From the NCBI RefSeq assembly GCF_018524365.1, contig NZ_JAEKFT010000011.1:62001-126000 (forward strand): DNA of 64,000 nucleotides, in the 5' to 3' direction. The translations under genes and the position numbers were made by a program. Source of the DNA: Denitromonas iodatirespirans (GTDB lineage: Bacteria; Pseudomonadota; Gammaproteobacteria; Burkholderiales; Rhodocyclaceae). Shown piece after piece: positions 13,730-36,909 of this stretch. The stretch's first letter is position 1. Each line of letters begins with the position of its first letter. The notes beneath the pieces were generated by a model that ran no database searches, was not told where the DNA came from, and worked only from the letters and a program-made list of their open reading frames with translations.

Positions 13730-14455
13730 ATGAACGCCAAGGACAAACTCCCCGCCGACCTGCCCAATGCCGCCGTGCCGCAGTACAACGCGCGCGAATC
13801 CTGGCGAATCTTCGGAATTATGTCAGAGTTCGTGGAGGGCACCGAACGGCTCAACGCGATCCGTCCGGCGGTCTCCATCTTCGGCAGCGCCCGCACACCG
13901 GCCGACCACCCCTATTACGTGCTCACCGAGCAGATCGCCCGGAAGCTGTCCGATGCCGGTTTTTCGGTCATCTCGGGCGGCGGCCCGGGCATCATGGAGG
14001 CGGCCAACAAGGGCGCCTTCTTCGGCAAAAGCCCCTCGGTCGGGCTGAACATCCAGTTGCCCCACGAGCAACAGGCGAACCCCTACCAGGACATCTCGCA
14101 GACCTTCCAGCACTTTTTCGCGCGCAAGTTCATGTTCGTGAAGTTCGCCTCCGCCTATGTGGTGATGCCCGGCGGATTCGGCACGCTCGACGAGTTGCTC
14201 GAAGCGATGACGCTGATGCAGACCAAGAAGACCCGCAACATCCCGATCATCATGGTGCACCGGCCGTTCTGGGCCGGGCTGCTCGAGTGGTTCAAGGACC
14301 GGCTGGTGAGCGAGCGCATGATCAACCCCGAAGATCTGGATCTGATCCAGATCATCGACGAGCCGGACCAGGTGGTCGAGGCGATCTTCAAGCATTACGA
14401 ATCGCGCGGCTTCCTGCCGCTACCCGACGAACACGAACTGATGCTCAATCTATGA
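13730..14455 (+). CDS. LOG family nucleotide 5'-monophosphate phosphoribohydrolase
   Basis: This 241-residue protein belongs to the LOG / TIGR00730 family, which hydrolyses the N-glycosidic bond of nucleoside 5'-monophosphates, including cytokinin precursors. The fold signature is present: IFGSARTP, SGGGPGIMEAANKGA and the PGGxGTxxE motif in MPGGFGTLDELLEAMTLMQ. It diverges from polA across 66 bases. GAGG precedes the ATG at 13730. Its TGA (14453-14455) lies inside ATGAA, the left target duplication of a family A element. Before that insertion the FAH gene would have started on the same ATGA. Confidence 0.9.
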   Translation: MNAKDKLPADLPNAAVPQYNARESWRIFGIMSEFVEGTERLNAIRPAVSIFGSARTPADHPYYVLTEQIARKLSDAGFSVISGGGPGIMEAANKGAFFGKSPSVGLNIQLPHEQQANPYQDISQTFQHFFARKFMFVKFASAYVVMPGGFGTLDELLEAMTLMQTKKTRNIPIIMVHRPFWAGLLEWFKDRLVSERMINPEDLDLIQIIDEPDQVVEAIFKHYESRGFLPLPDEHELMLNL

Positions 14456-14502
14456 ACCTAGAAACCGCAGTTGACCGCTTGAGCTTTTTAACAAGAGGCT
14501 GA
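14452..14502 (+). CDS. ORF1 of family A element, copy 1 (16 aa)
   Basis: The ATG of the left 5-bp target duplication opens a 16-codon frame reading M-N-LETAVDRLS-F-L-T-RG and ending at TGA 14500-14502. The second copy (36859-36909) encodes M-I-LETAVDRLS-M-L-P-RG in the same frame, and some codon differences are synonymous (TTA/TTG, AGA/AGG). The start would use the ribosome binding site that originally served the downstream FAH gene, or ribosomes terminating on the LOG gene, whose stop overlaps it. Translation is not proven. Confidence 0.4.
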   Translation: MNLETAVDRLSFLTRG

Positions 14503-14689
14503 ATATGCAAGATATCCCGGCTCCGGGCCCGATCACCCATCGGGGGAGAGCGCTACGCGCCCGATTGCACGCCTGGCGAGCCGCCTGGCTGCGTTGCTCC
14601 TCCTTACAGCGTGCAGGCTGTGCGTCGTCGCGCCTTGCCAGACATCTCGCCAGACGCACACTCGGCCACGTCCAACTACGGATTCCAGG
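14457..14689 (+). mobile_element. family A MITE-like element, copy 1
   Basis: A 233-bp element with terminal inverted repeats (CCTAGAAACCGCAGTTGA at the left, and the complement of CCTGGAATCCGTAGTTGG at the right). It is flanked by ATGAA (14452-14456) and TTGAA (14690-14694), read here as a 5-bp target duplication with one later A-to-T change. It lies between the LOG and FAH genes in the coding direction and encodes two small ORFs that chain from the LOG stop to the FAH start. There is no transposase. Copy 2 is at 36593-36904. Confidence 0.85.
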
Positions 14690-14693
14690 TTGA
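14505..14693 (+). CDS. ORF2 of family A element, copy 1 (62 aa)
   Basis: This frame begins three bases after the stop of ORF1 behind AAGAGG (spacing 7) and encodes MQDIPAPGPI, then RAWRAAW-like, CSSLQRAGC and RRTLGHVQLRIPG. The last codons are the right inverted repeat, and the TGA (14691-14693) overlaps the TTG start of the FAH gene. The copy 2 product has the same beginning and end with a 26-residue in-frame insertion. The peptide is Arg-rich with two Cys residues. I know no family for it; it may matter only as a carrier for ribosomes. Confidence 0.45.
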   Translation: MQDIPAPGPITHRGRALRARLHAWRAAWLRCSSLQRAGCASSRLARHLARRTLGHVQLRIPG

Positions 14694-15541
14694 AACTGCT
14701 GCGCTACGGCCCGGCGGGCGAAGAGCGTCCCGGCCTGCTCGATGCCCACGGGGTGGTGCGCGACCTGTCCGATGTGGTCGGCGACATCACGCCGGCCACG
14801 CTCGCGCCCGACGCCCTGGCCGCGCTGCGCAGCCTCGACCCCGCCAGCCTGCCCGCGGTGCCGGGCGCCCAGCGCCTCGGCGTGCCGTGGAGCGGCTGCG
14901 GCAAGTTCGTCGCCATCGGTCTCAACTACTCCGACCATGCCGCCGAGGCCGGCCTGCCCACACCGACCGAGCCGGTGATGTTCCCCAAGTGGACCAGCTG
15001 CCTGTGCGGCGCCAACGACGACATCGTGCCGCCGCCCGATTTTTCGCGGCTCGACTGGGAAGTCGAGCTGGGCATGGTCATCGGCCGCCGCGCGCGCTCG
15101 GTGAGCGAGGCCGAGGCGCTCGACTACGTGGCCGGCTACTGCGTGGCCAACGACATCTCGGAGCGCACCTACCAGTTCGACCGCTCGGGCGGGCAGTGGG
15201 GCAAGGGCAAGGGCTTCGACACCTTCGGGCCGGTCGGCCCGTGGCTGGTCACCGCCGACGAGATCCCCGACCCGCAGGCGCTCGGCCTGTGGCTGAGCGT
15301 CAATGGCGAACGCATGCAGACCGGCAACAGCGCCAAGATGATCTTCTCCTGCGCGCGCCTCGTCGCCGAATGCAGCCGGGTGATGACGCTCGAGCCGGGC
15401 GACCTGATCATCACCGGCACGCCGCCCGGCGTCGGCATGGGCCACCAGCCGCCGCGCTATCTGCAGCCGGGCGACGTGGTCGAGGCCGGCATCGACGGGC
15501 TCGGCGTGCAGGTGCAACGGGTCCGCGCACCGGCCGCCTGA
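14690..15541 (+). CDS. fumarylacetoacetate hydrolase family protein
   Basis: This 283-residue protein belongs to the FAH / ureidoglycolate lyase-like family that hydrolyses or decarboxylates small oxo acids with a Mg2+ ion. The core motifs are present: FVAIGLNYSDHAAE, DWEVELGMVIGR (metal-binding Glu residues), YCVANDISER and the ending LIITGTPPGVGMG. The family normally starts M-KLLRYGP; here the first codon is TTG at 14690, in the right target duplication of a family A element, and no Shine-Dalgarno sequence precedes it. Expression may depend on coupling with the element ORF2, whose stop overlaps it. Substrate is not known. Confidence 0.88.
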   Translation: MKLLRYGPAGEERPGLLDAHGVVRDLSDVVGDITPATLAPDALAALRSLDPASLPAVPGAQRLGVPWSGCGKFVAIGLNYSDHAAEAGLPTPTEPVMFPKWTSCLCGANDDIVPPPDFSRLDWEVELGMVIGRRARSVSEAEALDYVAGYCVANDISERTYQFDRSGGQWGKGKGFDTFGPVGPWLVTADEIPDPQALGLWLSVNGERMQTGNSAKMIFSCARLVAECSRVMTLEPGDLIITGTPPGVGMGHQPPRYLQPGDVVEAGIDGLGVQVQRVRAPAA

Positions 15542-35671: not shown

Positions 35672-36592
35672 TCAGTCGTCCTGGCCGCGCTTTTTGGCAC
35701 GCGGGTGGGCCGCGTCGTACACCTTGGCCAGGTGCTGGAAATCGAGATGGGTGTACACCTGCGTGCTGCGGATGCTGGCATGGCCGAGCATCTCCTGCAC
35801 GGCGCGCAAATCGCCGCTCGATTGCAACACATGGCTGGCGAAGCTGTGGCGCAGCATATGCGGATGGACATGGCTACCCTCGCCATGGCGGCGCACCCAG
35901 CGGTCGAGCCGGCTGCGCACTGCAGCCTGCGACAGGCGCGTGCCCTGGCGCGTGACGAACAAGGCCGTCTCCTGCGCCGGCGCGATGCCGGCTCGCACGG
36001 CCCGCCAGGCCTCGAGGGCGTCCAGCGCGGCGCGGCCGACGGGCACGATGCGCGTCTTGCCGCGCTTGCCGGTGACGGTCACCTCGCCCAAGGCCCGATC
36101 CACGCCGCGATCCACGTCCAGCGCCAACAGCTCGGCCAGGCGCAGGCCGGCGCTGTAGAGCAGCTCGAACATGGCGTGGTCGCGCACGTCGAGCGGGTCG
36201 TCGGGCGACACATCGAGCAGGCCGACCATGGCGTCGGGCGACAGGTTCTTGGGCAGGGTGCGCGGCGCGCGCGGCGGGCGAATGCCGTCGGCCGGGTTGT
36301 CGGTCGCGCCCTGGTGACGCACCCGCCAGCGGAAGAAGCCGCGCCAGGCGGACAAGGCGCGCGCCACCGAGCGCGGCGACAGGCCGGCACCATGCAGGCG
36401 GGCGGCGAAACGGCGGATCTGGGCAGTGGTGAGGCTGGCCGGATCGACCGGCCCGGCCAGGTCGGCCAGCTTGCGCAGTTCGCGCCGGTAGCTGGTCAGG
36501 GTGTGTGCGCTGGCACGCCGCTGGCTGGCGAGGTAGTCGAGATAGGCCTCGACCGGCCGGTCGAAGGGCGACGGGGCGCCGCCGTCGATCAT
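35672..36592 (-). CDS. xerC: tyrosine recombinase XerC
   Basis: This 306-residue recombinase acts with XerD at dif to resolve chromosome dimers. The N-terminal SAM-like core-binding domain (about 10-95) is followed by the catalytic domain. The C-terminal motifs HMLRHSFASHVLQ (H-x-x-R), LGHASIRSTQVYTH (His and the nucleophile Tyr) are intact. The ATG at 36592 belongs to the ATGAT duplication of a family A element, which separates xerC from its usual partners DUF484 and dapF. No Shine-Dalgarno sequence precedes this ATG; the overlapping stop of the element ORF2 may bring ribosomes. Confidence 0.95.
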   Translation of the reverse strand: MIDGGAPSPFDRPVEAYLDYLASQRRASAHTLTSYRRELRKLADLAGPVDPASLTTAQIRRFAARLHGAGLSPRSVARALSAWRGFFRWRVRHQGATDNPADGIRPPRAPRTLPKNLSPDAMVGLLDVSPDDPLDVRDHAMFELLYSAGLRLAELLALDVDRGVDRALGEVTVTGKRGKTRIVPVGRAALDALEAWRAVRAGIAPAQETALFVTRQGTRLSQAAVRSRLDRWVRRHGEGSHVHPHMLRHSFASHVLQSSGDLRAVQEMLGHASIRSTQVYTHLDFQHLAKVYDAAHPRAKKRGQDD

Positions 36593-36855
36593 CCTAGAAA
36601 CCGTAGTTGGACGCGGCCGAGTGTGCGTCTGGCGGGATGAGGGCAGGCCCCCACGCTCACTTCGTTCGCTGCCCCCCGAGGGGGCTGCACCCGCTCTTGG
36701 GGCGGCCCGGCGAGCGGGTGGACAAGGCGGGACGACGTACAGCCTGCACGCTGTAAGGAGGAGCAACGCGGCCAGGCGGCCCGCCAGACGTGCAATCGGG
36801 TGCGTAGCGCTCTCACCGGACGGGCGATCGGCCTCGGAGCCGGGATTTCTCGCAT
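36589..36855 (-). CDS. ORF2 of family A element, copy 2 (88 aa)
   Basis: This frame begins three bases after ORF1 behind AAGGGG (spacing 7). It encodes MREIPAPRPI, RAWPRC-like residues, CSSLQRAGC and ends RRTLGRVQLRFLG, matching copy 1 except for 26 extra residues in the middle from a 78-bp in-frame insertion (about 36634-36722, containing a C5-G6 hairpin). The TGA overlaps the xerC ATG (ATGA at 36589-36592). That the insertion is a multiple of three supports selection on the frame. No homology known to me. Confidence 0.45.
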   Translation of the reverse strand: MREIPAPRPIARPVRALRTRLHVWRAAWPRCSSLQRAGCTSSRLVHPLAGPPQERVQPPRGAANEVSVGACPHPARRTLGRVQLRFLG

Positions 36856-36904
36856 ATGTCAGCCCCTTGGCAACATGCTCAAGCGGTCAACTGCGGTTTC
36901 TAGG
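36593..36904 (-). mobile_element. family A MITE-like element, copy 2
   Basis: A 312-bp element with 10 outermost bases identical at both ends (CCTAGAAACC/GGTTTCTAGG) and similarity over about 21. It is flanked by perfect ATCAT duplications (36588-36592 and 36905-36909; ATGAT on the coding strand). It lies inside the conserved dapF-DUF484-xerC operon in the same orientation relative to the downstream gene as copy 1. It differs from copy 1 by a 78-bp internal insertion, one base before ORF2 and scattered substitutions. Confidence 0.92.
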
Positions 36905-36909
36905 ATCAT
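36859..36909 (-). CDS. ORF1 of family A element, copy 2 (16 aa)
   Basis: The ATG of the left ATGAT duplication, originally the xerC start codon one base after the DUF484 stop, opens a 16-codon frame M-I-LETAVDRLS-M-L-P-RG ending at TGA 36859-36861. It matches the 16-codon frame of copy 1 and ends three bases before ORF2. It would use the ribosome binding site that once served xerC. Confidence 0.4.
   Translation of the reverse strand: MILETAVDRLSMLPRG

Follow-up and report, generated by a model that had tools for sequence, protein, structure and literature searches.

How could a gene still be translated once a mobile element has landed on its start codon? The question arises at a junction within the window, a stretch of 64,000 nucleotides from the genome of Denitromonas iodatirespirans, where a 233-bp element with inverted ends is interposed between a gene that, from its Pfam match, we take to be LOG-type and a gene of the FAA_hydrolase (FAH) type (Table 1). 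The initial annotation had described this element between ATGAA and TTGAA, a 16-codon ORF opened by the left ATG, a second ORF with its own AAGAGG site and a TGA that overlaps the FAH-type start codon, and all of this was confirmed. Two details were revised. The inverted ends are present, but they are imperfect repeats of 22 bp (CCTAGAAACCGCAGTTGACCGC versus the complement of ACGTCCAACTACGGATTCCAGG) and not of 10 bp, and ORF1 ends 2 bases, not three, before the ATG of ORF2. The right end of this copy is CCAGG; hence, it has no exit through a TAG ahead of the start codon.

It had also been proposed that an insertion with target duplication interrupted an ATGA overlap of the two genes, and real empty junctions bear this out. 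The element-less junction could be aligned in six relatives (G001, G002, G003, G005, G006 and G009), five of which have ATGAA together with the ATGA overlap; in G002, a different spacer precedes ATGAA. An Rfam search over positions 14300-14850 gave a single match, which scored 26.1 bits where the gathering score is 70, and a known RNA family was rejected as the identity of the element because this sole match is below the threshold. A highly conserved stretch, GTTGCTCCTCCTTACAG (14593-14609), contains CCTCCTTA, the anti-Shine-Dalgarno sequence of 16S rRNA; the opposite strand reads TAAGGAGG, with no start codon close by. Folding of the RNA of this copy gave a z of -2.0 versus shuffles. The element RNA at another site, L047, folds far better than shuffles (z -7.6), in several branched hairpins.

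Table 1. Coordinates of the junction and of the second copy of the element in the window
Feature	Position	Strand	Remarks
Upstream gene, LOG-type (Pfam Lysine_decarbox)	13730..14455	+	start 13730 is the chosen ATG
Left target duplication ATGAA	14452..14456	+	LOG-type stop codon (TGA) and ORF1 ATG both fall here
ORF1	14452..14502	+	16 codons; opens at the ATG of the left duplication
MITE family A, copy 1	14457..14689	+	233 bp; multi-copy; no counterpart at the junction in six relatives
Left inverted end CCTAGAAACCGCAGTTGACCGC	14457..14478	+	22 bp
AAGAGG, candidate ribosome-binding site of ORF2	14493..14498	+	sequence; 6 nt ahead of the ORF2 ATG
ORF2	14505..14693	+	62 codons; no Pfam match; TGA (14691-14693) over the TTG (14690) that starts the FAH-type protein
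Right inverted end ACGTCCAACTACGGATTCCAGG	14668..14689	+	exit without Shine-Dalgarno match
Right target duplication TTGAA	14690..14694	+	TTG is the present FAH-type start; ATG in six aligned relatives
Downstream gene, FAA_hydrolase family (Pfam)	14690..15541	+	begins at TTG 14690
Family A, copy 2	36593..36904	-	312 bp including a nested insert of 78 bp; occupies the start of a XerC-like gene
Duplications ATGAT of copy 2	36905-36909 and 36588-36592		minus-strand sense

The element belongs to a dispersed family. A blastn search of its own genome (E<=0.001) returned 16 matching pieces, which represent 11 close copies and one diverged copy. Matches were present in four of nine sister genomes (one with partial matches only) and were not found in the other five; family-wide, 50/316 genomes gave a match in a survey that scored two candidates per genome and says nothing on copy number. 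Plasmids yielded one partial match only and phages none, and a single exact 22-base pattern had no match in viral contigs. The ends co-vary among lineages (CCTAGAAACC, CCTAAAAACC, CCTTGAAACC, CCTGGAAACC and CCTACATTCC), and the duplication is 5 bp long across the family and mostly reads WTNAW. The element is thus short, multi-copy, bounded by terminal inverted repeats and a target duplication and without a transposase gene, and we have filed it as a MITE.

The copies vary in length. A nested GC-rich repeat of 75-78 bp (with GGCAGCGAACG) is common to five of them (the window copy at 36593-36904, L008, L009, L011 and L085); its length is a multiple of three, and ORF2 stays open. A 134/135-bp form, which lacks ~99 bp of the palindromic core, recurs at L077, L092, L090, L166 and L155, with similar sizes at L136 (G028) and L262 (G074), and occupies two sites whose sister-species orthologue has the full 233-bp form. 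The recurrence may reflect repeated hairpin deletion or gene conversion.

Whole IS1380-superfamily elements with similar CCTA... ends were found in four relatives (G064, G027, G089 and G168). Their 5-bp duplications are ATGAA, ATGAG, ATCAA and TTGAT, they are not obviously on start codons, and their transposases (E 1e-45 to 1e-38) are below the curated NF033539 cut-off. The D. iodatirespirans genome (G000) has no transposase match to the NF033539 profile at E<=0.001. Blast matches between the whole elements and the MITEs are short (up to 33 bp among the matches listed) and mostly terminal; therefore, the link to IS1380 rests on ends and duplications. By its ends and duplication length, the MITE would best be explained as a non-autonomous type of the IS1380 superfamily. 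Two other IS1380 elements, L121 and L122, differ: their ends are CCTGAATCCGTG, and their duplications (TAACT and GGAGA) do not fit WTNAW.

Start codons as such are not the target of the element. The target is mostly WTNAW, and most copies lie away from start codons. Denitromonas has 33 unique sites, 24 of which are elsewhere; a conserved start codon is contained in the duplication at the remaining 9, namely L001 (FAH), L002 (ftsX-like), L005 (xerC-like), L009 (azlD), L011, L046 (cca), L047, L075 (crcB) and L085. For all nine of these genes, the element-less site was aligned in a relative; the pentamer of the relative is sometimes a variant (GTGAT for L009, ATGGC for L005). The cca insertion is common to three genomes, two of which hold a form shorter by 99 bp with the ORF2 frame kept. 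By coding-frame reading, the non-start sites are at stop codons or intergenic, apart from L004 (G000:C113:191785-192026). This copy lies within a coding sequence, in frame with its TTG codon, and has a decayed ORF2; from its motif, we take the host gene to be isoaspartyl-peptidase-like.

Genome G028 has start-codon sites at ftsL, ispH and a UPF0047 gene in one orientation and at folA, mreD and L138, a gene without assigned identity, in the other. Twelve further start-codon sites are found in G206, G304, G074, G174 and G167. Altogether, there are 27 unique sites at which the duplication opens with the start codon, ftsL, ispH, folA, mreD and cca among them. In the frame that begins at the right duplication, a Pfam domain starts at residue 1-8 for FtsL, LytB/IspH, DHFR, shikimate dehydrogenase, the cca-type PolyA_pol head, CrcB and AzlD; the match lies further into the frame for MreD, FtsX and a GHMP kinase, presumably IspE. 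The genes ftsL, ispH, folA, ispE and cca are essential in model bacteria. In Denitromonas, 9/18 ATGAW sites are on start codons versus 4.4 expected (p 0.016), a rough figure, given manual assignment of the sites and an expectation derived from codon-usage gene calls over 464 kb.

For a palindromic target, the Denitromonas copies strongly favor the TGA over the TCA orientation (26:2). The ratio is 10:9 in G028 and 20:5 in 45 further copies from 13 genomes. We dropped this bias as proof of selection, since it already stands at 17:2 at the non-start sites of Denitromonas; for the same reason, it is probably not an effect of translation alone. Some duplications are mismatched. At L001 and L136, a right TTGAA stands beside a left ATGAA, and at L046 and L075, the left copy is ATGAT where relatives read ATGAA. 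In these four (no relative was compared for L136), the altered base adjoins the element and renders the pentamer palindromic, as if a donor base had been carried over. The other mismatched pairs, L008, L059, L254 and L278, do not all fit a carried-over donor base.

The best reading of the start-codon insertions, and one that we hold to be probable, is that a translational relay makes them survivable. The transposase would favor WTNAW and duplicate 5 bp, and a start pentamer (ATGAT or ATGAA), often fused with the stop of the previous gene as ATGA, could serve as its target. After insertion, the left side would have the old ribosome-binding site and start codon, and the right side a naked start codon. 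Ribosomes that enter at the left start would translate a short ORF, or a few in succession, across the element. In two of three phases, a frame open at the right end would finish on the start codon, either at the duplication TGA that overlaps it or, where the end is TAGG, at a TAG one base ahead; in the third phase, the ORF would run in frame into the gene. Reinitiation on the host gene would follow; the passage of ribosomes along the chain is our inference. As summarized in PMC10666635, stop/start overlaps of 4 or 1 nt are the commonest and ~20 nt almost abolishes coupling; by that account, the TGA overlap and the TAG one base ahead would suit efficient reinitiation.

We scored a relay as a left start followed by ORFs that each begin -40 to +25 nt from the preceding stop, the last stop lying -15 to +4 nt from the right start. 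A site counted as a start-codon site if the start is the first triplet of the pentamer in the direction of the gene; sites with an overlap only (L140, which is ptsI-like, L246, L251, L252, L253 and L267) were placed among the others. Classification was by hand and unblinded, and gene starts in G028 and the other genomes were taken from coding-frame scores and some Pfam matches rather than from aligned empty sites. Of 60 further regions, 45 gave ends by the script criteria and 15 did not. All 45 copies entered the Fisher counts, in which the other G028 copies were counted once each (71 others in total), and 26 entered the permutation and shuffle tests, in which 16 other G028 copies were counted once per strand (68 others in total). 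Second orthologues, the 72-bp and 68-bp forms and the diverged L013 were excluded from the Denitromonas relay counts, and the test did not extend to the copies of G033, G014, G047, G050, G051, G052 and G001.

By this definition, a relay on the strand of the gene was present at 27/27 start-codon sites with ATG, GTG or TTG as permitted starts, at 27/27 with ATG or GTG and at 26/27 with ATG only, L276 being the sole failure. The corresponding counts for the other copies were 63/71, 59/71 and 44/71 (Fisher p 0.068, 0.016 and 0.0003). The chain of starts and stops proposed for the window copy thus holds at every start-codon site by the definition used, but at fewer of them with tighter distances: when the exit window was narrowed to -5 to +4, the counts went from 25/27 down to 18/27, the strictest comparison being 18/27 versus 22/68. 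Over 18 definitions, the stratified permutation p ranged from 0.0003 to 0.13, with 16/18 below 0.05; the most permissive one gave a weak association (Fisher p 0.07, stratified 0.09). The relay excess at start sites is sensitive to the stringency with which internal starts and distances are set. For Denitromonas alone, the ATG-only counts were 9/9 versus 11/22 (p 0.008), and the other start sets gave p 0.10-0.16.

The placement of three sites bears on these counts. L072 was moved from the start-codon sites to the others after its ORF2 had already been seen to be broken, because the start of dinB lies 27 codons downstream, by a Pfam match from residue 35 and the conservation pattern; counted as a start, it gives 28/28, 28/28 and 26/28. 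L140 and L096, whose starts are ambiguous or overlapping, stayed among the others; their inclusion as starts gives 29/29, 28/29 and 27/29. Divergence from the consensus in Denitromonas was alike for start-site copies (0.099) and others (0.111; p 0.66), and a greater age of the other copies is therefore not the cause of the excess in that genus. The initial annotation had named copies away from start codons, together with frames not conserved and an element free of ribosome density, as evidence against its proposal; most copies do lie there, and the relay is commoner at start-codon sites. Selection, through loss of chainless insertions or later upkeep of the chain, would account for this excess.

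The two-ORF form described for the window copy is one variant only. In other copies, a single frame runs across the whole element and exits at a TGA over the start or at a TAG one base before it. The impression that G028 has no relay was wrong; G028 uses another frame and both strands. There, only 2/22 copies, those on ftsL and ispH, have a sense frame that is continuous between the left start and the terminal TAG, and the three antisense start-codon copies have an end-to-end frame to TAG on the antisense strand, so that the single-ORF form is found in either orientation. The antisense frame to the terminal TAG is also present in L140, in L060 on its unused strand and in L094 and L097, which lie away from start codons; L069, likewise a non-start copy, has a sense frame that runs to TGA. 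The left pentamer of L140 has no start codon. L264 (aroE-like) passes the chain test, with a TGA frame that is open only from position 96 and has no start inside.

Could the chains be a coincidence? WTNAW includes ATGA, frames in GC-rich DNA tend to be open and the ends place stops by the start; expression downstream would then come from internal promoters or leaky initiation. Many non-start sites do fall in the target range, and shuffled interiors are expected to give relays at 20.3, 15.9 and 10.5 of the 27 sites with the three start sets, the first being the permissive one. ORF2 is open in 17-27% of shuffles, and the Denitromonas consensus is largely open in its other frames too; in DNA this rich in GC, an open frame by itself is unremarkable. 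Stop-making substitutions in the ORF2 frame numbered 6 against 10.5 expected overall (p 0.10) and 2 against 4.1 in the start-site copies (not significant). Purifying selection on ORF2, a check that had been suggested, thus finds no significant support in the stop-making substitutions. The TGA-sense bias at the non-start sites of Denitromonas, too, need not reflect selection on translation. Nevertheless, we consider coincidence unlikely. The start sites have an excess of relays not only over the other copies but also over the opposite strand (same copies with a sense-only versus an antisense-only relay, 3:0, 5:0 and 13:0 for the three start sets), usually essential genes keep intact frames behind the element and a scan around the window copy, which covered the sigma-70 type only, detected neither a sigma-70-like promoter nor a terminator.

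Less likely still is that the inverted end itself is a ribosome-binding site, with GAGGT or TAAGG 7-8 nt before the regenerated start, and that the host gene initiates alone. Such a match is present at 13/27 start-codon sites, those of L136 and L142 of G028 and sites in G206, G304, G074, G174 and G167, but is missing at 4/6 G028 sites, at L276 of G174 and at all 9 Denitromonas sites, the window copy included. At these nine sites, the ORF chain is the only route visible in the sequence. That ORF2 is a functional microprotein and the coupling incidental is very improbable: an open frame of 60-80 codons does end at the right edge in several genera, but two ORF2 forms have no Pfam match, stop-making changes show no significant depletion, the G028 counterpart of the frame is mostly short and a 1-nt insertion at L002 fuses ORF1 and ORF2 with the chain kept.

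A translational relay appears, then, to be the best-supported mechanism for this MITE. ISEcp1 has ends of the CCTAGA type, and the element resembles ISEcp1 and the IS1380-superfamily MITEs in such ends and in its 5-bp duplications; it differs from them in its start-codon insertions with relay frames and in a genome of its own without a match to NF033539. The Rickettsia palindromic elements (RPE) are likewise short palindromic mobile repeats, tolerated through a translation-compatible frame according to the review PMC10969869. RPE, however, fuse in frame within coding regions, whereas the MITE occupies the start codon, does not change the host protein and would act by termination and reinitiation; only 1/33 Denitromonas sites (L004) is in a coding region, with a frame broken by stops. 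ERIC and other ORF-bearing MITEs are also dispersed palindromic repeats reported with ORFs, so that neither ORFs nor in-frame fusions are new to bacterial MITEs (RPE, ERIC); the same review does not appear to describe coupling to a downstream start codon for them, its main text having 0 occurrences of 'start codon' (PMC10969869). Native overlapping ATGA/TGATG pairs, as described in PMC10666635 and PMC6728339, share the termination-reinitiation exit geometry; in the MITE insertions, an interposed transposable element would lend its own ORF as coupling partner in place of the upstream gene. The literature searched on start-codon and coupling MITEs, a scope that leaves out most subscription papers, appears to contain no transposable element using stop/start coupling among the papers listed, in agreement with the earlier statement that no described bacterial MITE is known to work in this way.

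More tentatively, the family as a whole, widespread and with ends (TAGG or similar, followed by the regenerated ATGA) that finish open frames on the target start, might be a self-inserting translational coupler that colonizes the start codons of essential operon genes, its relay-less copies being removed by selection. Start codons in compact operons are expectedly among the worst places for an insertion, and the relay may be why the host tolerates insertions there, some of them in normally essential genes. If this is true, selfish DNA could inhabit essential operons without silencing them, by means of a regenerated start and a coupled frame of its own. The family would offer a natural test bed for termination-reinitiation, with many genes, two orientations, several exit geometries and empty sites in sister species, and it could account for some of the small ORFs at gene junctions in these genomes.
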